From assembly GCA_034439735.1 (NCBI GenBank), contig JAWXAX010000011.1:1-36352 (forward strand): DNA of 36,352 nucleotides, in the 5' to 3' direction. Made by a program: the position numbers and the translations under genes. The notes beneath the pieces were generated by a model, which worked only from the letters and a program-made list of their open reading frames with translations, did no database searches and was not told where the DNA came from. This DNA is from Rhodothermales bacterium (GTDB lineage Bacteria; Bacteroidota; Rhodothermia; Rhodothermales; JAHQVL01). This document shows positions 11,482-33,140 of the stretch, one piece after another. Each line of letters opens with the position of its first letter. The stretch's first letter is position 1.

Positions 11482-12822
11482 TTACCCGATGAGCGGCTGC
11501 CCGAACTTCGTGTCGATCTGGATGCCGAGGTCCTTGAGCATGCTGGTCGGAAGGGTGCCGCCGACCATCACAAAGACGTAGTCGTTCGCGATGCGGTGCA
11601 TACCGCCGCCGGCGTCGCGGTACGCCACGGAATCGGGGCCGATGTGGGTCACTTCGGTCTCGGGTAAAAAATGGACCTTGTGGGTGGCGATCGCTTCCTC
11701 GATGCGCCGGGTGTTGCCGGGTTTGATGCGCGCGAAGCTGGAACGGCGGTAGCTCAGGTGCACGGTGTTGCCCGGCTGCGCCGCCAGAGCACAAGCCGCC
11801 TCGATGGCGCTGTCTCCTCCGCCGACGACCAGGACGCGGTTGTGATGGAAGTGGTCGGGATCCAGGAGCGAGTAGGCGACTTTGGAGGTATCCTCCCCGG
11901 GCACATCGAGCTTGCGGGGCACGCCGCGCCGGCCGATGGCGAGGATCACTCGCCGCGCCTGGAACGTGTCCCCCGAAGTCGTGACCTCGAAGCATCCCTG
12001 GTCCATTTTCCGGACGTTCTGCAGGGTGACGCCCGTCAGGATCTTGCCGGCGATTCCGGTCCTCTCGACGATGCTGCTCCAGAGCTGGATCAGATCTTCC
12101 TTGAGGATGCTCTTGAAATCGAGCTTGCCGTATCCGGGCACGTCGAGCGGAAACGTCATCACCAGTTTCTTGCGAGGGTAGTACCGGACCGTCCCGCCGA
12201 TGTCTTCCTTCTCGATGGTGCGGAAGGGGAGGCCCAGGCTGTGGGCGTGGAGCGACGCCGCGAGGCCGGCGGGGCCGCACCCCACGATGATCACGTCCAG
12301 CACGTTCGGATCCGTCGAACGATCGGGCTGCGCCGCGATCCATCGCATACACTGGCGCGCTTGCTCGAACGCGTTGCGGAGCAACCCCATCCCCCCCAGT
12401 TCGCCGAGGATAAACAGGCCCTCGACGTTGGTTTCGAAGTTTTCCTTGATACGGGGAATATCTACCCCCCGCTTCGAGGTGCCCACCACCAGCTGGATGG
12501 CATCGACCGGGCAGGCACGTTCGCAGAGGCCGTGCCCCACACAGTGGGTGGGGTTGATGGCCAGCGCCATGCCCCCCAGCAGGCCCAGCACGTCTTTCTC
12601 AGGGCACACGGCGATACAGTTTCCCGTGCAAATACACGCCGTGGGGTTGATCACCGGATGAAGGGTGTCGGGCTCTTCGACGCCCATTTCGCGGGCCTTG
12701 TTGTACACCCGCTCGGCATGTTGCTCTTTCAGGACATGCGCGATGAGGTACGGTACGACGAACACGAACACCAACCCGATGCCGATCAGCCAGACGACAA
12801 TCGATTCGACCTCTATACCCAT
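11482..12822 (-). CDS. Membrane-tethered iron-sulfur and FAD-dependent pyridine nucleotide oxidoreductase
   Basis: A 446-residue three-part protein. Residues about 5-28 are a single membrane helix (IVVWLIGIGLVFVFVVPYLI). Residues about 55-115 are a two-cluster ferredoxin-like domain with CICTGNCIAVCP and CVGHGLCERACP. The rest is a thioredoxin-reductase-like flavoprotein: FAD site DVIIVGCGPAGLAAS and NAD(P) site VLVVGGGDSAIEAA, with no CxxC redox disulfide, as in ferredoxin-NAD(P)+ reductases of the YpdA/FNR type. In both cluster motifs the second cysteine of the usual CxxCxxCxxxCP is missing from its place (Thr and His stand there). It probably moves electrons between NAD(P)H and a membrane or periplasmic carrier. 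Its ATG is 3 bases after the stop of the beta-barrel gene, so it belongs to the cytochrome operon. Confidence 0.88.
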   Translation of the reverse strand: MGIEVESIVVWLIGIGLVFVFVVPYLIAHVLKEQHAERVYNKAREMGVEEPDTLHPVINPTACICTGNCIAVCPEKDVLGLLGGMALAINPTHCVGHGLCERACPVDAIQLVVGTSKRGVDIPRIKENFETNVEGLFILGELGGMGLLRNAFEQARQCMRWIAAQPDRSTDPNVLDVIIVGCGPAGLAASLHAHSLGLPFRTIEKEDIGGTVRYYPRKKLVMTFPLDVPGYGKLDFKSILKEDLIQLWSSIVERTGIAGKILTGVTLQNVRKMDQGCFEVTTSGDTFQARRVILAIGRRGVPRKLDVPGEDTSKVAYSLLDPDHFHHNRVLVVGGGDSAIEAACALAAQPGNTVHLSYRRSSFARIKPGNTRRIEEAIATHKVHFLPETEVTHIGPDSVAYRDAGGGMHRIANDYVFVMVGGTLPTSMLKDLGIQIDTKFGQPLIG

Positions 12823-12825
12823 ACG

Positions 12826-14433
12826 TCAGAAGCGGATTTGGAGGCTGGTCTGGCCCGAAACGCTGCTCAGGAACCGGCTCTGTTGGAGGGTGACACGGGC
12901 GTTCCAGTACAGCGTTCGTCCGAGCGGCACCGAGGCGGACGCGGAGTAGCGATGCGCATCGATCGGATCGGTCTGGTTGGCGGTCGTCGTCCGATAAAAA
13001 GCATACTCGAGACGCACATTGCCGCCGCCGAAGCCTTTCGTAAGGCCGGCCGCCGCGTACAGCGCCTCGCCGAAGTCGGACGTCCACCGGCTGCCGTTCG
13101 CGTTCAGCGAAAGGTTCAGCGGCTGAAAAAACGGCGTGGCGCCGTACACGATGATCGTCCGGCTGTCGTACGCGCCCTCGGTATACCGGGTGGCGTATTC
13201 ACCGCCGAAGGAAGCGTCGCCGCCGCGGACGGTAAAGCCGGCGCCGATCTGGTCCCGTCGCGTGGAAAACGGGGTGACGGTACTGTACATCCGGTAGGGC
13301 TGCCGCAGGCTGTACCGTCCACGGAGCTGGATCTGGTCGGTCAGGCGCACTCGCGGGTCGATCTGGAATTGCGAGACGACCAGGTCTTTTGTGAGCGGGT
13401 TCTGGTCTATGGCAATGTCCTGGTCGATCGAGAACGCCCCCCAATCGAATTCCTGCGAGAACTCGCTGAAACGATGATCGAGGTAGATGGCGGTGGGATG
13501 GACTTCGTGGTAGGAGACGGCGGCCCGGTATCGCCACGGTTTGCCTGCCGGCGTGCGGTACTGTGCAAACCCTGAAATCCGGGGGAAGTCGGTCGTGAAT
13601 CCTTCGTTTGCCTGTTCCGGCATGAAGCCGGCCGCCACGCCCATGCCGGCGTTTCGCGATCCAATCAAAAAGCTGCCCCCATCCCAGTAGCCGCCGTGCG
13701 GGGTCAGGTTGTTGTAGAACCTCCCGAATTGCATCTCACCAAACGACAGGTCTTTCTGGAGGCTGAGCTGATAGGTCCGCATCGAACGCTCGGGGAGAAT
13801 CGAAGCCACGGAGCTGCCTCGATGCTCGGCGCGCATGCTGGCGTGGAGCCGCGTCTGCGATGGGAGGTTGCGGACGGTTACGTTGAGGTTGAGCGATGGC
13901 GTGGCGAACTGCCGGCCCACCGGTGCGAAATCGGAACCGATCGGGCGTGTCTCGGAGGAGAGCAGGCTCAGGCCGAGCGTGGCCCGGCCATCTACACGAA
14001 CCGCTTGCCGGCGTTTTTTGTCGGGCGCCCTGGCGGACGTTGTGACTGGTACTTTTTCGGGCGCCGGCGCCTCGGCTATTACTTCCGCAGGCGTCGTCTC
14101 TATCGCGGCGGACCTACGCGTGAATGTGATCTCGACCTTCATCCCGCGCGTGATCGGGAACGACTGGTTCACAAAACGCAGTACGGACTGTTTGCTGGCC
14201 GTACTGAGTACGATCATCCGGCCCAACAGCCGGCCGCCCGCCCCGACGCGCAGCGTGTCCGTCGCCTGGATGCCCGCGTCGCGGCCTACGTTGATATACG
14301 CGTTGTCGCCGGCGATCTGCGTCACCGTCGCCGTCAGCGTCGTGTCCTGGGCCGATGCCTGGGCCGCGCCGGCGAGGAAGAGAAGGAGGAGCCAAAAGAA
14401 ACGGTTCAGGTTTCGGGTTCGCCGCTTCGGCAA
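12826..14433 (-). CDS. Outer-membrane beta-barrel protein with extra N-terminal periplasmic domain, in cytochrome operon
   Basis: An unnamed exported protein of about 535 residues. The start is uncertain: a TTG at 14433 gives a normal signal peptide (MPKRRTRNLNRFFWLLLLFL, cleavage after AQASA-Q), while the ATG at 14475 would begin inside a palindromic repeat and add an odd leader. The mature N-terminus (about 70 residues, with NVGRDAGIQATDTLRV) resembles the small all-beta domains with an AGI-x-x-GD-x-L pattern found in envelope proteins such as FlgT. After a Pro/Ala-rich linker, about 380 residues show alternating polar/hydrophobic strands rich in Tyr, Phe, Arg and Gly, ending in QIRF with a terminal Phe, the usual sign of an outer-membrane barrel. 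Its place between two multiheme cytochrome genes and a redox enzyme suggests it is the porin of an electron conduit. Confidence 0.72.
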   Translation of the reverse strand: MPKRRTRNLNRFFWLLLLFLAGAAQASAQDTTLTATVTQIAGDNAYINVGRDAGIQATDTLRVGAGGRLLGRMIVLSTASKQSVLRFVNQSFPITRGMKVEITFTRRSAAIETTPAEVIAEAPAPEKVPVTTSARAPDKKRRQAVRVDGRATLGLSLLSSETRPIGSDFAPVGRQFATPSLNLNVTVRNLPSQTRLHASMRAEHRGSSVASILPERSMRTYQLSLQKDLSFGEMQFGRFYNNLTPHGGYWDGGSFLIGSRNAGMGVAAGFMPEQANEGFTTDFPRISGFAQYRTPAGKPWRYRAAVSYHEVHPTAIYLDHRFSEFSQEFDWGAFSIDQDIAIDQNPLTKDLVVSQFQIDPRVRLTDQIQLRGRYSLRQPYRMYSTVTPFSTRRDQIGAGFTVRGGDASFGGEYATRYTEGAYDSRTIIVYGATPFFQPLNLSLNANGSRWTSDFGEALYAAAGLTKGFGGGNVRLEYAFYRTTTANQTDPIDAHRYSASASVPLGRTLYWNARVTLQQSRFLSSVSGQTSLQIRF

Positions 14434-14469
14434 GGCCCATGTGTGGCACTCGTTAACCCCCAAGCACCT

Positions 14470-14544
14470 CGTCATCCCGGCCTCCGAGCCGGGACCCAGT
14501 CGTGTTGTAATTCGGCTGGATCCCGCATCACATGCGGGATGACG
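14470..14544. repeat. 75-bp composite palindromic element
   Basis: The outer arms CGTCATCCCG (14470-14479) and CGGGATGACG (14535-14544) are perfect inverted repeats. Inside are two further hairpins: CCCGGC/GCCGGG with a 6-base loop (14476-14493) and TCCCGCAT/ATGCGGGA with a 3-base loop (14521-14539). The whole can fold as a three-way junction. Elements with GTCATCCCG ends are seen between genes in many unrelated bacteria. It lies between the 16-heme cytochrome gene and the beta-barrel gene, and could act as an RNA structure within that operon. Confidence 0.8.
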
Positions 14545-14606
14545 ATAAAGGAAAGGCATGGGAGTGTTCTCACCAAGTGCAAAAAGAATCATGGTCTGAA
14601 CGCGGT

Positions 14607-15890
14607 CTAATTCCCGTTGGGATGGCAATTCAGACACAGCGGGAAGTCGAAGGTATACCCGTTTTCACCCTGGTGTTCGTTGTCCATTTTGGCCTTCGTG
14701 TGCTCATGGCAGGCGCCTTCGCAACTGAACGAGGCGTAGTTCGCCGGCTGCAAATGGCAGGACTGGCAGTTGTTCGACCATTCGCCCCGGTGATTTCCCG
14801 AATAGATCGGGAAATACAGGTCGTCGTGATCGAACGTCGCGCCGTCCCAGGTGGTCGTGTTGTGGCAATCCAGACAGGTATTCGGGAAGCCCGTACCGGT
14901 GTGCTCATCCGAGTAGTCCTGCTGGTGGCAGGTGATGCAGTCCTGGTCGTTGGCCGGGGTAAAGAGCGGCGTGAGATCGGGCATGCTGTGGCAGGTTTCA
15001 CAGGCCAGGGCGTCGTGCGCCCCGATGAGGGCGAAGCCCTCGGAGGCGAGTACGTGGTCGAACGTCGCGCCGTCCCACGTCTCGGTGGAGTGACACTCGA
15101 GGCAGGTCGTCGGGAATCCGGAGCCGGCGTGTTCGTCGGTGTAATCGGGCTGGTGGCAGGAGATACAATCTTGATCGTTCTGTGCCGCAAAAATGGGGGT
15201 CAGATCCGGGGACCGATGGCAGGCCGAGCAGGGTTCTTGTTCGTGGGCTCCGAGCAGCACGAATCCGTTCGAGGCCAGCTGGTGATCGAACAGGGTGCCC
15301 TGCCAGTTCACCGTGTTGTGGCAGGTTTCACAGGTGAGCGGGAAGCCGGCGGCGACGTGGTCGAGGCTCGTCGCATGATCATAATCATCCTGGTGGCACG
15401 ATTCGCAGGTGGACTCAAGCGAAGTAAAGGCGCCGCCCACATCGTCGGTGTGGCAGGTAACGCACGTGAGTTGCGCGTGGGTGCCCGTCAGGGGGAAGCT
15501 GGTGCGCGCATGGACGCCGATGCCCTCGACATCCTGGAAAAGCGTGGTATTGTGGCAGTCGGCGCAGTTTTGGGAGTAGGCGCCCTGGTGGACATCCAGA
15601 TGGCACGTGGCGCACTCCGTCGCCGCGACATGGGGTTCGTCAAATCGGAGATCGATGTGGCAGGAAGCGCAGTTGACCCGCTGGTGACTCCCCGTGAGGG
15701 GGAAGTCGGTCTGCATGTTATGGGAAAACGCCATGGCCTCGCGCAGCGGGGCCCAGGCCTCGGTCCGATGGCAGGCATTGCAGTCGGAGTCGATCGTGAG
15801 CACGCCGTGTGGACTTGTCCCCTGTTGGGCGTAAGCGGTAGATCCGGCCAGTGTGAGCAGCCAGACGATGAGTAGAGCGGTGCGTCTCAT
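14607..15890 (-). CDS. Multiheme c-type cytochrome, 15 CxxCH plus one Cx3CH
   Basis: A 427-residue exported cytochrome, starting at ATG 15890 (MRRTALLIVWLL, cleavage near AYA-Q). The upstream in-frame extension to 16061 lies inside the preceding cytochrome gene and was dropped. I count 15 CxxCH heme-attachment sites and one CEGACH (Cx3CH) near the end, so 15 or 16 covalent hemes at about one per 27 residues. Most sites are preceded by an F-x-L-x-G-x-H motif that can supply the distal histidine. A 76-80 residue block containing NDQDCISCHQPDYTDEH and TWDGATFDH is repeated two to three times. It belongs to the loosely defined cytochrome c3-like multiheme group and is presumably a periplasmic electron wire. 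It begins one base after the stop of the 20-heme gene. Confidence 0.92.
   Translation of the reverse strand: MRRTALLIVWLLTLAGSTAYAQQGTSPHGVLTIDSDCNACHRTEAWAPLREAMAFSHNMQTDFPLTGSHQRVNCASCHIDLRFDEPHVAATECATCHLDVHQGAYSQNCADCHNTTLFQDVEGIGVHARTSFPLTGTHAQLTCVTCHTDDVGGAFTSLESTCESCHQDDYDHATSLDHVAAGFPLTCETCHNTVNWQGTLFDHQLASNGFVLLGAHEQEPCSACHRSPDLTPIFAAQNDQDCISCHQPDYTDEHAGSGFPTTCLECHSTETWDGATFDHVLASEGFALIGAHDALACETCHSMPDLTPLFTPANDQDCITCHQQDYSDEHTGTGFPNTCLDCHNTTTWDGATFDHDDLYFPIYSGNHRGEWSNNCQSCHLQPANYASFSCEGACHEHTKAKMDNEHQGENGYTFDFPLCLNCHPNGN
14800..15410. repeat. 228-240 bp internal coding repeat in the multiheme gene
   Basis: The DNA coding for CHQ-x-DY to NDQDC repeats with a spacing of 228 bases between the last two copies (the block TGGTGGCA on the plus strand at 14923 and 15151) and 240 bases to the earlier, more diverged copy (15391). 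Each unit encodes about five heme sites. This shows the cytochrome grew by internal duplication. Confidence 0.75.
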
Positions 15891-15891
15891 A

Positions 15892-17622
15892 TTATTCTTC
15901 CCCGTGGCAGTCTTCGCAGGCCGTTGGGAGCGGACGGTAGCGGGTGAAGGGGTCCCCCTGAGAGGGTTGTTCTTCGGTGTGACAGCTTTCACAGGCGACG
16001 CGGGTATGCGCGCCGGTGAGCGAGAACCGGGTTTTTTCGTGATCGAACGAGGGAATCTCAAACGCCTGCGTGTCGTGGCAATCGTTACAGGCCTTACCCG
16101 GGAATTGATCGAGGTGCGGGTCGTCTTCGGTGTGGCAGCTGGCGCATGCGGTATCCAGCCCCCGGTACGCCGGCCCCTCGAAGCCGGCCTCCGGGCCGGC
16201 GGCTTTGTGGCATCCGTCGCAGGCTACGGTTTCGTGTTTGCCAGTAAGCGCAAACAGCGTCTCGTCATGGTCGAAGCTGCGGGCGTCGTCCCAGCGCTCG
16301 GTCACGTGGCACGACGTGCAGGCCGTCAGCCCGCGCTCGTCGGCAAATTGATCGCCGTGTGGACTATCCTCGCGGTGGCAATCCTGGCACTCGGTCTCTT
16401 CGATGGCAAAGGTCGGACGGTCGCCATCGGGGTTGTGGCACGCGACGCAGGCCGTGGCGAGGTGAGCGCCCGTGAGTTCGAAGGAAGATTCTTTTAGATG
16501 CCGTGTGATATCGTACGTCGACGGGTAGAAATCGTGCTGGTCGTGGCAATTCTCACAGACCGCTCCACCGCCGGGGCTCTCGACGAATTCCTTCTGGTGG
16601 AAATCGACGTGGCAGGAGAGGCAGTTGGTCGCCTGGAGCCGCGGGTAGGTGTTGCCGGCGGTATTCCCGATGAGGGTCACCCGTATGTCGGCGTCGCGCC
16701 GGGCGGGTTTCTGGTGGCAGGAGGCGCACTCCAGGTCCGCATGGCTCCCTATCAGTTCGTAGCCCGTCTCGTCGTGGTCGAATTTCGTTTTACTAAGCTC
16801 GGTGAGTTCGTGCCAGTCGGCGGTTTTATGGCAGGAGACACAGTCCGCCCCGAACCGGCCTTCATGCTGATCTTCGTGGCAATTGCGGCAGGAGGCGAAC
16901 TCGATGGGGCGGTACAGGGCGTATTCAGCGCCGGCCGGCGTCTGCCGGGTTTCGTGGCAATTCTCGCAGGACACGTCCTGATGCCGGCCCGTCAGCTTGA
17001 ACCGGGCTTCGTCGTGGTCGAAAGCCACGGCCTCTTCCCATTTCTCCGTTTCGTGGCAGGTGTCGCAGGCTTCTGTCTCAAACTGATCCTGGTGCGGGCT
17101 GTCGGGTTCGTGGCAGGATTTACACGGAGTGAGCAGGCCCAGATAGGTTTTGTCGAGCGCGTTGTGTTTCTGGTTGTAGGCCAGCACATCCGGCGCCAGG
17201 ATATAGTCCGTCTGATGGCACGTCCGGCAGGCCGTTTCCTGGTGCGCCCCGGTCAGCTTAAACGTCGTTTTGTCATGCTCGAAGGCCGTGGTGTCGAAAC
17301 GAACGGGGACGAAGTCGACCCCGAAGTGTTCTTTATGGCAATCCCCGCACGGCTGGGCATCGACCGTGACGTGAAAGCCGGTTTTTGCGTTGATTCGGGC
17401 CTCGATCGGTGTGTGGCAGTTCAGGCACAGGTCGTCGTTCGCGCTCCGTTGCCCGAGCGCGTGGCATTGCGTGCAGTTGGCCACGCCTTCGAGGTCGGTG
17501 TGGGCACGCGTCAGTTTACCGGGCGAGATCAACTGGGATTGGCTCGCGGTTGGGGTGAGGCATGCCGCCAGCGCAACGATCAGCAACGCCAATCGAGCCG
17601 GCGACGACGACAGATTGAGCAT
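15892..17622 (-). CDS. 20-heme c-type cytochrome
   Basis: A 576-residue exported protein with 20 CxxCH motifs by my count (from CTQCH near residue 51 to CEDCH at the end), about one heme per 29 residues. It has six copies of a module FDH-x(6-8)-F-x-L-T-G-x-H-x4-C-x2-CH, whose two extra histidines could be distal heme ligands. The leader LALLIVALAACLTPTAS allows either signal peptidase I cleavage or lipidation at Cys21 (LAAC). I chose the ATG at 17622 because it forms TGATG with the stop of the upstream TPR gene. Such density indicates electron transfer or storage, not a small-molecule enzyme, although an active-site heme lacking a distal ligand cannot be excluded. No separate c-type cytochrome maturation genes are in the window. 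Confidence 0.93.
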   Translation of the reverse strand: MLNLSSSPARLALLIVALAACLTPTASQSQLISPGKLTRAHTDLEGVANCTQCHALGQRSANDDLCLNCHTPIEARINAKTGFHVTVDAQPCGDCHKEHFGVDFVPVRFDTTAFEHDKTTFKLTGAHQETACRTCHQTDYILAPDVLAYNQKHNALDKTYLGLLTPCKSCHEPDSPHQDQFETEACDTCHETEKWEEAVAFDHDEARFKLTGRHQDVSCENCHETRQTPAGAEYALYRPIEFASCRNCHEDQHEGRFGADCVSCHKTADWHELTELSKTKFDHDETGYELIGSHADLECASCHQKPARRDADIRVTLIGNTAGNTYPRLQATNCLSCHVDFHQKEFVESPGGGAVCENCHDQHDFYPSTYDITRHLKESSFELTGAHLATACVACHNPDGDRPTFAIEETECQDCHREDSPHGDQFADERGLTACTSCHVTERWDDARSFDHDETLFALTGKHETVACDGCHKAAGPEAGFEGPAYRGLDTACASCHTEDDPHLDQFPGKACNDCHDTQAFEIPSFDHEKTRFSLTGAHTRVACESCHTEEQPSQGDPFTRYRPLPTACEDCHGEE

Positions 17623-18236
17623 CAACCAGGGGGGAGTTTGTTCAGGGATTGGCGGGCCATCAGGGCCACGTCGGGGTCGTCGATCTGATCGGCAACCTCT
17701 GTCCAGATGGCGCGCGCATCTTGAAACCGGCTCATGTTCGCGAGGATAGCACCTTTGTTGTAGCGGCCGGCCGGATCGCCCGAGTAGCGCGCGAGCAGGT
17801 CATCCACCGCCTTGAGCGCCTCGTCCCACTGCTGTAGCTCGCCATAACATTGCGTGAGATCCAGCCAGACCTGCCGGTTCGCCGGGTGCAGCGCCAGATA
17901 GTGTCTATAGGTGCGAGCGGCCTCCTCGGGCTGATGCGCATCCTGCAGAAGCCGGCCAAAACGGATCAGATGCGTGGTATCATCGGGCGCTTCGACGAGG
18001 CGCATCCGTAGCGTCTCCAGCTGCGAGTGGGTCGTCGGATTGACGTTGCTCTTGTCCGGCGTGAAGGTCTCCGACGGGGTCGTGGAGGCGCTGGCCGCGG
18101 CGGGCGCGGCGGTCCATCCCGCCTCGGCGTGCGGATCCGTGGCCCGCTTCGCGCCGAACCAGAAGACAGCGAACAGCACGAAGCCGGCCAATACATAGGC
18201 CAGGAGAAATGGGCTTTGTTTCCATCGATTGGTCAT
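17622..18236 (-). CDS. Membrane-anchored TPR protein, CcmI/NrfG-like, in cytochrome operon
   Basis: A 204-residue protein starting at ATG 18236 (MTNRWKQSPF). It has one membrane segment at about residues 9-28, a Thr/Ser/Ala/Pro-rich linker, then about three TPR units (for example LIRFGRLLQDAHQPEEAART and GRYNKGAILANMSRFQDARA). Soluble TPR domains hung in the periplasm resemble NrfG and the C-terminal part of CcmI/CcmH, which present apocytochromes to the heme ligase; this is a plausible role next to genes encoding more than 30 heme sites. Its TGA overlaps the ATG of the 20-heme gene (TGATG), strong evidence of coupled translation. The function is inference from position and fold. Confidence 0.82.
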   Translation of the reverse strand: MTNRWKQSPFLLAYVLAGFVLFAVFWFGAKRATDPHAEAGWTAAPAAASASTTPSETFTPDKSNVNPTTHSQLETLRMRLVEAPDDTTHLIRFGRLLQDAHQPEEAARTYRHYLALHPANRQVWLDLTQCYGELQQWDEALKAVDDLLARYSGDPAGRYNKGAILANMSRFQDARAIWTEVADQIDDPDVALMARQSLNKLPPG

Positions 18237-18294
18237 GGTGTCAGCGTAGAATAGTGTCCGTCTGTTAGGTAGGTTAATGAGCCGGAAATTGGAT

Positions 18295-18318
18295 GTAGGG
18301 ACACGATACATCGTGTCC
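18295..18318. repeat. Single palindromic REP-like repeat
   Basis: The unit starts GTAG, followed by GGACACGAT, two bases, and ATCGTGTCC, a perfect 9-bp stem. It shares the GTAGRGAC start and palindromic plan with the pair at 3400-3500 but has a different stem sequence. It sits in the 110-base gap between the cytochrome b-like gene and the TPR gene. Confidence 0.7.
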
Positions 18319-18346
18319 GCCCCTTGGGACGCGTAACGCCATTGTG

Positions 18347-19204
18347 TTAAAGAATCCAGGTATATCCAAAGGCGATCGCGACGGCGATGTGGATCAGGAA
18401 GGCGGCCAGCATCACCAGGGCGAGCGGGATGTGCAGCACGTGCCAGTAGCCAAACGCGCGCACGAATGGGCCGAGCGTCTGCCGGCGGAGCTGTAATTCG
18501 ACCTGATGGAGCAGCAGGGGGACGGCTTCGCCAATCTGTTCGGTAGCGACGCCGCGTTCCAGCAATTGCCCCCGAAAACGATCCTTCAGGCCGCGTTTGC
18601 TCCATTGGAACCGCAGGGTCTGCGCCATGGCGCCCGGGATGCTGTTCGCCGCCGGCACGCCGGCCAGCAGCCGCGCGATTTCGGGCTGCCCCAGTCCCGT
18701 CATGTCGCCAAGCCGCTGCCCGAGCGCGGCCTGCGCGCGTATAATGTCGTTCGCCGAGTAGAACTGGCCGTTGGTGGTTTTGGGGATATGGACATAGACA
18801 TACCGCCCGAAGATGCCGCTTGCCACCACCACGGCCATACTCCAGAACGAGATGGACGCCACGTTGCCGAACTTAAATGTGGTGTGGAGCAACACGAGGA
18901 ATGGCCCCAACGTGCACAGGAAGATGTGGAATGTGAGCCAGGTCCGCAGCTTGCCGAACCGCTGCATCGCCGCCGAGCGCTTCCGAATCATATACGAACT
19001 CACCCCCACGATCATCATGAGGCTCCCGATGATGCCGAGTCCCTGGCCGATCAGGCCGGAGGGACGGAAGTGGGTGTGCGCCGGCATGTAGGCGCGCTCC
19101 TGGAGAGGCGCCATGTAATAGCCGTACCCTTCGATGAGGGGGTACACGGCAAGTGCCAGCCAGAGAACAACAAGCAGCACCGATCGGTGCGACGTCTTTT
19201 CCAT
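18347..19204 (-). CDS. Polytopic membrane protein with two H-x13-H pairs, putative diheme cytochrome b
   Basis: A 285-residue protein with about five membrane helices: residues about 8-30, 50-72, 90-110, 117-137 and 256-280. Two helices each carry histidines 14 residues apart, H93/H107 (FHIFLCTLGPFLVLLH) and H258/H272 (HIPLALVMLAAFLIH). This is the spacing of the four heme ligands on helices B and D of cytochrome b of the bc1/b6f family, so the protein could hold two stacked b hemes across the membrane. A soluble region of about 100 residues lies between helices 4 and 5. It is first in the cytochrome gene run, 110 bases before the TPR gene, and would be the natural quinol-oxidising entry point. 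No close named family is recognised. Confidence 0.75.
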   Translation of the reverse strand: MEKTSHRSVLLVVLWLALAVYPLIEGYGYYMAPLQERAYMPAHTHFRPSGLIGQGLGIIGSLMMIVGVSSYMIRKRSAAMQRFGKLRTWLTFHIFLCTLGPFLVLLHTTFKFGNVASISFWSMAVVVASGIFGRYVYVHIPKTTNGQFYSANDIIRAQAALGQRLGDMTGLGQPEIARLLAGVPAANSIPGAMAQTLRFQWSKRGLKDRFRGQLLERGVATEQIGEAVPLLLHQVELQLRRQTLGPFVRAFGYWHVLHIPLALVMLAAFLIHIAVAIAFGYTWIL

Positions 19205-20198: not shown

Positions 20199-21698
20199 TC
20201 ACTGCGCAAGAGGAGTTTCGACTGGCGGACGCGTGCCAGACTGGCGTGCAACATCACTCGCCAGGGGAAGATGAAGGCGGACGGTAGTGCCGGTCGCCGG
20301 CTCGGAGGTGATTTCGATCGAGCCGCCGTGCATGGCGATGATCTGGTCCACGAGCGACAACCCGAGCCCCGAGCCGCTGACGATGTCGGCCGTGGTATCG
20401 GCCCGGAAGAACCGCTCGGTAACGAAGGGCAACGCGGCAGGATCGATCCCGATCCCCGTATCGGTGACGGAAAACGTGATCCGGCCGGCTTCGATGCGGG
20501 CAACCAACTCGATGCCTCCGGCCAGCGTAAACTTGACGGCATTTTCCAGTACATTTCGCAGCGCGTCGCGCACGAGATCCACATGGCCCCGTACGGGCAG
20601 GGAGGCGTCGATACGCTCCGTCCAGGTCAGGCCCTTTTCGCGGGCCCGCCGGCTGAAAAACGCGGCCTCGTCCCGGATCAGATCGGCAAGGTCGAAGGCC
20701 GTATCGCCCACCATCGCCCGGTCGCGCTCCAGCCGTGTGAGGGTCAGCAGACTACGGATGGTGCGGCTCATGCCGTCGATCTCGACGCCCAGCGTGCGGA
20801 GTGTGTCCGCATACGACTCCGCGGTGCGCGGCCGGCGCAGGGACACCTCAACCTGTCCGCGCAGCACGGTGAGCGGGGTCTGCAACTCGTGCGCGGCGTT
20901 CGCGGTGAATCGACGCATGTTCTCAAAGGCGCTCCCGAGCCGGCCCAGCAGAGCATTCAGCGTCTCGGCGAGGCGCGTCGTCTCCCAGTCGGCATCCGCC
21001 GGCACGGGGATGCGCTCGTCCATCCGGGTCGGCGAGAGGGCGTCTGCCACACGGGTGATTGTTTGCAGCGGACCCAGCGCCCGGGCCGCCACGCGGTCCG
21101 TCAGCACCAGCAGGATGATCAGCAGCGCGACGAGCCCGAGGGAAAGCCCGATGGCAAACTCGCGCAGCCGGCCCGGAATGTCTGGCTTGTAGCGGGCGAT
21201 TTGCAGAAACCCGATCGCCTGCTCGTTGCGGCCCAGGATGGGGTAGTTGCCGAAATACAACGCTTCGCCATCGATCTCGATGGTATTTAGCGCGCTGATC
21301 GTTCCGATCGCCGAGGGCTGATAGGTGACCAGCGAGTCGGGAAACGGCGTGGTGAACAGCCGGGTGTTGCCCGATGCATAGACGATGGCGCCCTGGGTAT
21401 CAAAAATCTGCGCGAAGTAGGGGTCCACCCGTTGTTCACGGTACAGGTGGTGCGGCTCATGCCACGAATAACGGTCGGGCGCCAGCTTGCCGTCGAGCCC
21501 GACAATGTGGAAATTGATCTCGACCGCCTCCCGCTCAAGCAGCGTCCACGCGTGATAATGCAGCCATCCGTACGTAGCCAGCCAGCTCAGTACTCCGATG
21601 ATGAGAAAGGCAATCGCGAGCACCAGGCCCTGCGAGAACACCAGCCGGCGCCGGAACGTGATGCGCCGCGGGTTCGGATCGGATGAAGTGTCGGTCAA
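20199..21698 (-). CDS. Two-component sensor histidine kinase, HAMP type, partner of metal-efflux regulator
   Basis: A sensor kinase of about 499 residues. No ATG fits; TTG at 21698 (22 bases after the regulator stop) is the best start, as the longer frame overlaps the regulator by 100 bases. Helix 1 is at about 22-43, a periplasmic sensor loop at 44-182 and helix 2 at 183-201. HAMP follows to about 255, then the H-box FTANAAHELQTPLTVLRG (H270), NVLENAVKF, DTGIGI and GSGLGLSL. This layout is that of CusS/CopS/QseC-like kinases. With the regulator upstream and the metal RND operon divergent, a metal-sensing role is likely. The periplasmic loop has several histidines (for example WHEPHHLY), which could bind metal; that is inference. 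Confidence 0.88.
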   Translation of the reverse strand: MTDTSSDPNPRRITFRRRLVFSQGLVLAIAFLIIGVLSWLATYGWLHYHAWTLLEREAVEINFHIVGLDGKLAPDRYSWHEPHHLYREQRVDPYFAQIFDTQGAIVYASGNTRLFTTPFPDSLVTYQPSAIGTISALNTIEIDGEALYFGNYPILGRNEQAIGFLQIARYKPDIPGRLREFAIGLSLGLVALLIILLVLTDRVAARALGPLQTITRVADALSPTRMDERIPVPADADWETTRLAETLNALLGRLGSAFENMRRFTANAAHELQTPLTVLRGQVEVSLRRPRTAESYADTLRTLGVEIDGMSRTIRSLLTLTRLERDRAMVGDTAFDLADLIRDEAAFFSRRAREKGLTWTERIDASLPVRGHVDLVRDALRNVLENAVKFTLAGGIELVARIEAGRITFSVTDTGIGIDPAALPFVTERFFRADTTADIVSGSGLGLSLVDQIIAMHGGSIEITSEPATGTTVRLHLPLASDVARQSGTRPPVETPLAQ

Positions 21699-21720
21699 CG
21701 GCGTAGAGAGAAGTCGGAGA

Positions 21721-22401
21721 TCAGAGAGGTTCGGGCAAGAATCGGTACCCGACGCCGCGTACGGCCTCAATGCGCGCCACGCTACCCGCGTCCTGCAATT
21801 TGCGGCGGACGTACCCCACATAGACGTCGATCAAATTGGTGCCCCGGTCGAAATCGTGCCCCCATACGTCGCGATGGATATCTTCCCGGCGGAGCGCCTG
21901 TTCCTTGCGCACGATAAAATAGGCCAGCAGATCAAATTCCTTCTGCGTGAGATCGAGCGAGATGCCATCACTGAGGCACGTGCGAGCGACAGGGTCGAGC
22001 ACGAGTTGCCCCTCGCGCCGGGTCTGATTGCCCGGCACCAGACGGGCACGCCGGCTCAGCGCATCCATACGTGCCAGTAACTCGTTGAAGGCGAAGGGTT
22101 TGGGTAGATAATCGTCTGCTCCGGCACGCAGGCCGGCCACGCGGTCCTCGACGGCGTCCAGCGCGGTGAGCATCAGGATCGGGAGCGCGGGGGCGTGCAC
22201 TCGCAGTTGCCGGCACACTTCGATACCCGAAAGATCCGGCAATCGGATATCCAGCAATACAATGTCAAACGATTGCTCCAACCCCAGCGTGAGCGCTTTC
22301 GCGCCCTCCGTCACCCAGGTCACCTGGTAGCCTTCCTCGCGCAAGCCCTGTTCGACAAAGGCCGCGACGCGCGCCTCGTCCTCCACGAGCAAAATGTGCA
22401 T
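21721..22401 (-). CDS. OmpR/PhoB-family response regulator, probable metal-efflux regulator
   Basis: A 226-residue regulator. The receiver domain (1-118) has acidic E7/D8, the phosphoacceptor D51 in LLDIRLPDLSG, T79 and K101 in LPKPFAF. The C-terminal winged helix (about 128-225) has SLDLTQKEFDLLAYFIVRKE and the recognition-helix region TNLIDVYVGYVRRKL, ending in IEAVRGVGYRF, the typical OmpR/PhoB end. It is closest in pattern to CusR/CopR/QseB. It is the first gene of a two-gene operon with the histidine kinase and is divergent from the RND efflux operon 146 bases away, the usual arrangement when the regulator controls the pump. Confidence 0.93.
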   Translation of the reverse strand: MHILLVEDEARVAAFVEQGLREEGYQVTWVTEGAKALTLGLEQSFDIVLLDIRLPDLSGIEVCRQLRVHAPALPILMLTALDAVEDRVAGLRAGADDYLPKPFAFNELLARMDALSRRARLVPGNQTRREGQLVLDPVARTCLSDGISLDLTQKEFDLLAYFIVRKEQALRREDIHRDVWGHDFDRGTNLIDVYVGYVRRKLQDAGSVARIEAVRGVGYRFLPEPL

Positions 22402-31205: not shown

Positions 31206-33035
31206 TTATTTGATCAGGAGCATCGTGCGCACCTGCGATCCGCTCGGACTTTCGATCCGGTACAGGTAGCTACCCGTGGGCAGGCCAGCGGCATCGAAGC
31301 TGACCTCCGCGCGGCCGGCGGCCATCGCCTGGTCCACGAGTACGCGCACCTGGCGGCCCAGCATGTCGTACACAGCAAGGCGAACCTGCCCGGCTTCGGG
31401 AAGCGCGAATGCGATGGTTGTCACGGGGTTAAACGGGTTCGGGTAGTTGGCCTCGAGGGCAAACTCCGTCGGGACGGCGTCGATGGCTTCGTCGGCGAGG
31501 GCGACCTCATCGAAGGCTTCTTCGCTGTGCCCGGAGATACCGGCCGAGCGGCCCACCTTGCCGGCCGAGTCGATCACGACAAACGAGGCGCTCAGGGCCG
31601 TGCCCGCGGTGCCGCCGGCACGCTTCTGGTCGTACGGCGTGGCCACCAGGGTATGATCGCCGACCGGGAAGGCCCCGTTCAAGTAGTCGCCGCCAAGGTC
31701 GCCAAACAGGGCGAATGGCGCGACGTTCTCGAGCCGGCTGTAGCCGATCGAATCGATCTTGAACCAGACGCTTTCGACCCCATCGCTCACGTCAGCCCGG
31801 AGGTTGACCTTCGCGGGTAGCGCGGCGACATCCAGGGTGTCGCCAGGCATGAGATGGACGAGATCCATATCGGTTTCGGCATCGACCAGCACAAACCCGG
31901 TTACCGCGTTATCGCTACTGACGACCGTGAAGGAGACGGTGGCCATCTCCAGCATCATCCCGCCGGCGTTGGCCTCGGCAAACGCTTTCGCCGTCAGCGT
32001 ATGCGATCCCACGGGCAGCCGCCCGCCGGCAAAATTACCGTCGACATCGCCGAAGAGGGCGTAGGGCGCGTCGTTTTCAACGCGGATCGCCACGAGGTCA
32101 TTCAGGTCGAACTGCACGCTGCCGGCATCGCCGGTCAGGTTGGCACGCACGTTCAAGCCCAGGGGCAGCGCGTTCAGGTCGAGCATCGCGCCGTCGACGA
32201 TGGGGTCGAATCCCGCTATCGGCTCGTCCGTCGCCGCGTCGATCAGTGACAGGCTGGCGCCGGCGGGTACGTTGGCCGGCAGCAGGGCCGTGGTGCCGTC
32301 GGCGAAGACGGCGAGGAGGCCAAAGGCCGGGTCGGTGCTGTCGGCCGGGGCGAGGAAGCCGGAGGCAAGGACCGCAATGGCGGCATTAGCGGCGCCGGAG
32401 AGGTCGGCCACGTAGGAAGCGGCGACGGCGCTGTTGTCGGCTAGTTCGATGTCGATCGCGTAGGAGGCCGGCGGGACGGACAGGTAGCCGGCGAATCCGC
32501 CGAAGCTGATGTCGTCCACCAGGATGCCGGCGCCGCGTGCGGAGACGTCGACCGTCGGGGCGTCGGGGGCGCCGTGGAAGACGAGGAGTTCGACATTGCC
32601 GGCGGTGGCGGCGGCCTCACGGGCGGGGGTGTAGATGAAGAGGTCGAACGCCGGGTTGCCGGCGCCCGCCAGCGGATCGCCGGCGGCGACGACGAGGTAG
32701 GTCTCATCGGCGGCGAGGCCCGGGGCATCGATGGTTTTGGTGAACACCGGGCTGCTGTTATCCGCGGCGGTTGCGCCGGTGATGTCGATCTTGACGGCGA
32801 CGCCGGCAGGGAGGTCGACAAACGGCGTGGCGGAACGGAAGACGAAGTCGTCGAGGGTCAGCACATCGTTGATGTAGACGTCGACGACGCCGGCGGCGGC
32901 GTAGGGCGAGTTGTGCACGACCTGTACGCGGGCCGTCTGCGCGAGAACAGATGGGGCGGCCAGGATGAGAGCCAGGCAGAGCAGGAGGAACCTGCCTGGT
33001 GCGCTGAGCTTTTTAGAGCGAGTTACAATGTTCAT
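31206..33035 (-). CDS. Secreted DUF4397-domain protein with T9SS C-terminal sorting signal
   Basis: A 609-residue secreted protein starting at ATG 33035 with a long signal peptide (core FLLLCLALILAAPSVLAQ). Residues about 33-250 are DUF4397 repeats, beginning ARVQVVHNSPYAAAGVVDVY and again at VELLVFHGAPDAPTVDV. Two Ig-like repeats of about 110 residues follow, each with LPxxxNxRA, ENxAPxALFGD and PVGxHTL blocks. The last 80 residues are a type A T9SS sorting domain: NYPNPFNPVTTIAFALPEAG, VYDMLGRQVRVLVD and LPTGSYLYRI, ending MLLIK. It should pass the outer membrane by the type IX secretion system and be anchored or released. The ligand and role are unknown. It is monocistronic, with a terminator after it. 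Confidence 0.9.
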   Translation of the reverse strand: MNIVTRSKKLSAPGRFLLLCLALILAAPSVLAQTARVQVVHNSPYAAAGVVDVYINDVLTLDDFVFRSATPFVDLPAGVAVKIDITGATAADNSSPVFTKTIDAPGLAADETYLVVAAGDPLAGAGNPAFDLFIYTPAREAAATAGNVELLVFHGAPDAPTVDVSARGAGILVDDISFGGFAGYLSVPPASYAIDIELADNSAVAASYVADLSGAANAAIAVLASGFLAPADSTDPAFGLLAVFADGTTALLPANVPAGASLSLIDAATDEPIAGFDPIVDGAMLDLNALPLGLNVRANLTGDAGSVQFDLNDLVAIRVENDAPYALFGDVDGNFAGGRLPVGSHTLTAKAFAEANAGGMMLEMATVSFTVVSSDNAVTGFVLVDAETDMDLVHLMPGDTLDVAALPAKVNLRADVSDGVESVWFKIDSIGYSRLENVAPFALFGDLGGDYLNGAFPVGDHTLVATPYDQKRAGGTAGTALSASFVVIDSAGKVGRSAGISGHSEEAFDEVALADEAIDAVPTEFALEANYPNPFNPVTTIAFALPEAGQVRLAVYDMLGRQVRVLVDQAMAAGRAEVSFDAAGLPTGSYLYRIESPSGSQVRTMLLIK

Positions 33036-33140
33036 AGCTAAATACGAGTCTGGGTGATTAAACGTGGGCCCCACCCGCGGTGGGTAACATCGAAGGTGGG
33101 GCCGTTCTCAGGGTATTGGTCGTGCTGCAGCTTTTCCATA

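Follow-up and report, generated by a model that had tools for sequence, protein, structure and literature searches.

A widespread PCC3-type porin-cytochrome gene cluster with a candidate NAD(P)H-linked entry module in Bacteroidota, Ignavibacteria and Gemmatimonadota

Introduction

The models of extracellular electron transfer are Shewanella and Geobacter, in which the outward chain is quinol-fed. Among Geobacter cytochromes, those of the GSU1996 type are built of tandem triheme c7 domains.

PCC3 is a putative porin-cytochrome system that combines a porin and a periplasmic cytochrome with an extracellular cytochrome of variable heme number and an inner-membrane protein (IMP) of about 300 residues (PMC5566968). 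The IMP, which PCC3 and PCC4 have in common, has five transmembrane (TM) helices, with SGXXG on TM4 and WX3HX13H on TM3 and TM5, and the published model assumes a quinone link for it (PMC5566968). The periplasmic cytochrome of PCC3 carries 21-27 hemes in Gallionellaceae. The porins often have more than 22 strands, up to 42 (PMC5566968). PCC3 has been described mainly in Proteobacteria, including Sideroxydans lithotrophicus ES-1 and Leptothrix, and because it is found in iron oxidisers it has been discussed as a candidate for iron oxidation (PMC5566968). Our search found no literature joining PCC3, porin and Bacteroidota, and a Melioribacter multi-omics paper contained none of the terms sought.

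Here we analyse a locus of a Rhodothermales bacterium whose core matches PCC3 and which adds a membrane-tethered Fe-S/flavin protein and a TPR protein. The window, i.e. the whole stretch of DNA analysed (36,352 nucleotides), is part of contig C11 of a 5.13-Mb draft genome.

Results

The original prediction, made from the letters of the window, described a minus-strand run of six genes in a T9SS-type bacterium. All six genes were found with the same junctions (Table 1): TPR and MHCa meet at TGATG, one base separates MHCa from MHCb and three bases separate the barrel gene from the FAD gene, while wider gaps precede TPR (110 bases) and the barrel gene (about 170 bases). The start codon of the barrel gene is ambiguous (TTG 14433, TTG 14463 or other). 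The T9SS assignment also holds, with 108 Por_Secre_tail matches in the genome, most of them above cut-off.

Table 1. Features of the cluster and its surroundings in the window.
Feature	Coordinates	Strand	Description
IMP	19204-18347	minus	285 aa, 5 TM helices, predicted diheme cytochrome b
TPR	18236-17622	minus	membrane-anchored, TM 10-28, TPR Pfam matches
MHCa	17622-15892	minus	exported c-type cytochrome, 576 residues, 20 CxxCH
MHCb	15890-14607	minus	exported cytochrome, 427 residues, 15 CxxCH and one CX3CH (CEGACH)
Dispersed repeat	14440-14606		in the gap upstream of the barrel gene; partial matches at 8 further sites of the genome (79-91%)
BAR	about 14433-12826	minus	exported outer-membrane beta-barrel, signal peptide, C-terminal Phe
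FAD protein	12822-11482	minus	TM 8-26, Fer4 and Pyr_redox Pfam domains
Ferredoxin motifs of the FAD protein	12510-12634		residues 63-104
Histidine kinase	11455-10439	minus	HisKA and HATPase_c; downstream of the cluster
Kinase/response-regulator pair	20199-22401		upstream of the cluster
DUF4397 protein	31206-33074		T9SS C-terminal sorting domain

The histidine kinase gene starts 26 bases downstream of the FAD gene and is possibly on the same transcript; it was not seen as a conserved member of the cluster in relatives. Two-component genes thus lie on both sides and may control the cluster. An AcrB-type RND efflux operon is located 3-9 kb from the cluster on the opposite strand.

The IMP agrees with the PCC3 signature in its size of about 300 residues, five TM helices and both sequence motifs. 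WX3HX13H occurs at residues 89-107 and 254-272 (H93-x13-H107 and H258-x13-H272, the tryptophan standing four residues upstream of the first histidine in each) and SGXXG occurs as SGIFG at 129-133; none of 5,000 shuffles of the IMP contained two WX3HX13H motifs. Moreover, the four histidines are invariant even in homologs at 19-26% identity. Five membrane helices are seen in the structure model, with a long helical arm (about residues 140-250) connecting TM4 to TM5. Loop 2 contains six Arg/Lys and no acidic residue, and the arm is therefore assigned to the cytoplasm by the positive-inside rule. With this topology, H93 and H258 would lie near the cytoplasmic face and H107 and H272 near the periplasmic face, and the protein is predicted to bind heme b.

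Profile, sequence and Foldseek searches returned no significant Pfam or solved-structure match to the IMP. Pfam searches of 30 family members gave no match to PF01794 and only weak ones to DUF4405 (17/30) and Ni_hydr_CYTB (4/30). Cytochrome b561 was considered as the fold (Z 6.7) and set aside, as it was tied with unrelated helical proteins. A scan of viral contigs found no IMP.

Basic residues follow the single N-terminal TM helix of the FAD protein, which probably places the rest of the protein in the cytoplasm. Its Pfam matches are to Pyr_redox_3/2 and Fer4, and YpdA, thioredoxin reductases and ferredoxin-NADP reductases are its relatives of solved structure. The protein joins a flavoprotein part of the FNR/YpdA type to a ferredoxin domain. 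The ferredoxin motifs, C63x5C69x3C73P and C94x2H97x2C100x3C104P, differ from the standard four-Cys motif, the first lacking its second Cys and the second being CxxHxxC; their cysteines and H97 are kept in 89/89 FAD-protein sequences. CxxHxxC ferredoxins studied to date were isolated with [3Fe-4S] clusters (PMC6237146). The FAD protein lacks the features of a thioredoxin or bacillithiol disulfide reductase: it does not carry the redox-active CxxC pair of thioredoxin reductase, no CxxC precedes the GGGDSA motif, C182 is not conserved (Ala in 82/89) and the NCBIfam YpdA score is 148 against a cut-off of 340.

In the model of the barrel protein (mean pLDDT 82), a disordered linker joins an N-terminal beta domain to 22 long strands, with Phe at the C-terminus. 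The nearest solved folds (Z about 20 and below) are barrels of TonB-dependent receptors and other porins, but unlike these receptors the model lacks a plug. This supports a wide, empty barrel, and the model does not say which cytochrome would fill it. The protein has no Pfam or NCBIfam family match and MtrB is not among the listed folds, although absence from such lists excludes nothing. The TPR protein, with one N-terminal TM helix, is probably a periplasmic scaffold.

The 20 CxxCH motifs of MHCa compare with a shuffle mean of 0.23 and a maximum of 3, and the 15 of MHCb with a shuffle mean of 0.19. Counting the single CX3CH motif, MHCb probably carries 16 hemes by its sequence, i.e. 10+3x2. 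Neither cytochrome has a sequence match in the PDB set. A clear assignment to a known respiratory reductase had been named as an outcome that would speak against a conduit; Pfam and NCBIfam profiles gave no catalytic reductase family above cut-off for either protein. HmcA and DmsE assignments were rejected because the scores are far below cut-off, the DmsE-family matches being also partial.

In relatives, MHCa has 20 hemes at 54 loci and 23 at 20 loci, with 17 or 26 in some, whereas MHCb ranges from 10 to 64 hemes on a ladder of 10+3n, a feature that the original prediction did not see. The CxxCH count of MHCb equals 1 modulo 3 in 58 of 63 complete genes, and in 60 of 63 when CX3CH is counted (binomial p = 2e-22, a statistic that ignores shared ancestry). 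Two exceptions with 23 hemes (L109, L121) seem to be genes of the MHCa type that were collected as MHCb. The ladder results from the layout of the protein, in which a 7-heme N-terminal cap is followed by n modules with a heme spacing of about 34/21/21 and by a 3-heme C-terminal cap. Two such modules lie between the caps in the window, and in the MHCb of the nearest relative there are 18 in tandem, each of 77 residues (231 nt). MHCb therefore seems to lengthen by whole three-heme blocks. Tandem triheme c7-like modules are shared with GSU1996-type cytochromes; however, MHCb relatives are much longer, bear the special caps and are encoded with a porin.

On a quick IMP tree of 60 loci, some of which may be close relatives, the heme number of MHCb changed at least 38 times and left its modulo-3 class once, whereas that of MHCa changed 3 times. 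This contrast in rate, itself a result, would be expected if one part spans the periplasm and the other lies free outside it: MHCa would have to fit the periplasm, and MHCb would be free to grow outward. MHCa is accordingly predicted to be the periplasm-spanning wire and MHCb the outer-membrane or extracellular wire. Against this placement, the MHCb of the window carries neither a lipobox nor a T9SS tail, so that its surface location is putative.

An IMP-like match is present in 46 of 296 sampled genomes of the same phylum, 28 of them, besides the window's own, at E <= 1e-42. In GTDB, at least 552 IMP loci were confirmed; the best 80 of these were kept for analysis and include no proteobacterial locus. 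The inspected loci with the cluster belong to Bacteroidota, Ignavibacteria/Chlorobiota and Gemmatimonadota, and the order IMP-(TPR)-[FAD]-MHCa-MHCb-BAR-[FAD] is conserved in about 100 loci. Three arrangements account for nearly all of the 102 parsed neighbourhoods that are not cut by a contig end: IMP-FAD-MHC-MHC-BAR, IMP-TPR-FAD-MHC-MHC-BAR and IMP-(TPR)-MHC-MHC-BAR-FAD, the last of which is that of the window. The FAD gene adjoins the cluster in most loci and is near-universal in complete clusters, and the TPR gene is often present, in a subset of relatives. Lack of conservation in relatives had been proposed as grounds for abandoning the conduit reading, and this objection fails because the gene order is widely conserved.

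Gemmatimonadota show the same gene order with a 17-heme MHCa; around a single MAG of this phylum, 6 of 61 genomes contain the IMP. In the cultured Emticicia oligotrophica DSM 17448, the cluster is located on plasmid pEMTOL02 beside the cytochrome-maturation gene ccsA. A search for PCC3 on plasmids with MHCa found only short porin-less modules.

Distant IMP homologs (19-26% identity) reside on plasmids of Methylophaga, Roseomonas, Bradyrhizobium, Variovorax and Rhizorhabdus, annotated as iron reductase or hypothetical. They adjoin a ferredoxin reductase, which in the four scanned has the domains FAD_binding_6/NAD_binding_1/Fer2; this NAD(P)H-FAD-2Fe2S reductase is non-homologous to the FAD protein of the cluster. 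Most of these operons also contain a small cytochrome c3-type gene. They are porin-less and often lie among copper/heavy-metal genes, and zwf, gnd and tal, which belong to the pentose phosphate pathway, lie around the operon on the Bradyrhizobium BTAi1 plasmid. On the Glaciecola plasmid pGLAAG01, genes for an IMP homolog, a ferredoxin and a cytochrome c lie directly upstream of a NiFe hydrogenase operon.

A second IMP locus is present in the window's own genome (contig C14, 3388-13086). It encodes 5-heme and 7-heme cytochromes, a 490-aa exported protein, a cNMP-binding/Fer4_11 (PF13247) FeS protein, an IMP homolog and a 10-heme cytochrome, and is similar to subgroup II of the published PCC4 (He et al. 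2017, PMC5566968).

Discussion

The original prediction proposed a trans-envelope electron conduit in an arrangement that it did not recognise. The conduit reading is likely, as the parts fit and the gene order is widely conserved, but the arrangement is less foreign than it seemed: the membrane protein, the cytochrome of about 20 hemes, the variable large cytochrome and the porin match PCC3 (PMC5566968), which is a closer comparison than the MtrCAB, Geobacter Pcc and Cbc systems first invoked. Like PCC3, the cluster pairs a porin gene with its cytochromes, has a predicted periplasmic cytochrome of about the same heme number and a second cytochrome family in which heme number varies. We therefore regard the cluster as PCC3-type by signature and composition, the proteobacterial PCC3 proteins being compared by description only. 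Most likely, it is related to the PCC3 conduits known from iron-oxidising bacteria and, though very widespread, has been little noticed.

New relative to published PCC3 are a dedicated NAD(P)H Fe-S/flavin module and the TPR protein, together with a distribution that covers Bacteroidota, Ignavibacteria and Gemmatimonadota rather than Proteobacteria, and the three-heme ladder, as the published Gallionellaceae counts do not step by exactly three. The barrel differs as well, with 22 predicted strands.

PCC4 shares the IMP signature, and the IMP of the PCC4-like locus on contig C14 is distantly homologous to that of the cluster; however, PCC4 has 4-, 5- and 10-heme cytochromes, a PF13247 FeS protein (subgroup II) and no variable large cytochrome. 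MtrCAB, MtoAB and PioAB likewise combine a barrel with multiheme cytochromes across the outer membrane, but the cluster encodes no decaheme MtrA, MtoA or MtrC, its cytochromes carrying 20 and 16 heme motifs, and inner-membrane entry in those systems is CymA-type or other. Ferric reductases/NADPH oxidases (NOX, PF01794) and MsrPQ resemble the cluster in having two HX13H pairs for two stacked hemes b, predicted here, and a cytoplasmic NAD(P)H flavoprotein. In contrast to them, the flavoprotein of the window is a separate protein of the FNR/TrxR type, the IMP family does not match PF01794 and the acceptor would be a multiheme wire.

We propose, with a probability of roughly 0.6, that the cluster encodes a porin-cytochrome conduit of the PCC3 type that has an NAD(P)H entry of its own and carries electrons outward through both membranes. 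In this proposal, we infer complex formation, protein locations, electron direction and substrate. The tethered flavoprotein would oxidise NAD(P)H at the cytoplasmic face, and its ferredoxin domain would hand the electrons to the heme b on the cytoplasmic side of the IMP, which would then move them across the inner membrane to the periplasmic-side heme, in the manner of an NADPH oxidase or ferric reductase. The 20-heme MHCa, perhaps held by the TPR protein, would bridge the periplasm, and MHCb would be seated in the 22-strand barrel and reach outward over a length set by its number of tandem triheme modules. The extracellular acceptor of MHCb may be an Fe(III) or Mn(IV) mineral, an electrode, quinone-like organic matter or another cell.

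The main argument concerns the point of entry. Distant IMPs stand beside a different NAD(P)H reductase, so that two unrelated NAD(P)H flavoproteins occur with one membrane family. This favours NAD(P)H as the point of entry over quinone, the route proposed for PCC3. The quinone-linked scheme is the published model for the PCC3/PCC4 IMP (PMC5566968). Applied here, it would make the IMP a menaquinol-active cytochrome b feeding MHCa and MHCb, with the flavoprotein topping up or sensing the chain or working with menaquinone, and the system would still be a trans-envelope conduit. It would suit the loci in which the FAD gene lies at the far end of the cluster and not beside the IMP, as well as the few cut contigs in which this gene was not seen. 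Given the non-homologous flavoproteins that pair with the IMP superfamily, and a flavoprotein that is membrane-tethered and nearly always present in complete clusters, we consider this scheme unlikely, though it is the strongest competitor.

Electrons could also run inward, from Fe(II), Mn(II) or another cell through MHCb to the quinone pool or, with energy input, to NAD(P)+. The occurrence of PCC3 in iron oxidisers, and its discussion as a candidate for iron oxidation (PMC5566968), would agree with this direction. Yet NAD(P)+ reduction by Fe(II) at neutral pH is steeply uphill, the cluster encodes no energy-coupling subunit and many carriers are, judging from their names, presumably organotrophic Bacteroidota; an inward conduit thus appears improbable. 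We give slightly less credence still to a reductase chain for metal handling or detoxification, or a periplasmic or outer-membrane respiratory reductase, in place of energy-conserving extracellular electron transfer. Such a role is suggested by the copper and heavy-metal genes around the distant plasmid modules and by the RND efflux operon in the window, but those modules have neither porin nor large cytochromes, the efflux operon is on the other strand and MHCa and MHCb resemble no catalytic reductase family above cut-off.

Returning to the outward, NAD(P)H-fed conduit, we tentatively suggest a broader view, which we hold with less than even confidence: a large class of quinone-independent exporters in Bacteroidota, Ignavibacteria and Gemmatimonadota may wire NAD(P)H directly to the outside and tune the outer wire by triheme cassettes (10+3n) while the periplasmic wire stays fixed. 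If true, very common environmental bacteria would export electrons by a different entry route, as the cluster is present in hundreds of species of the Bacteroidota group. The heme ladder offers natural wires of graded length, each made of a single cassette in repeat, and with them a direct way to measure how biological electron conduction depends on length.
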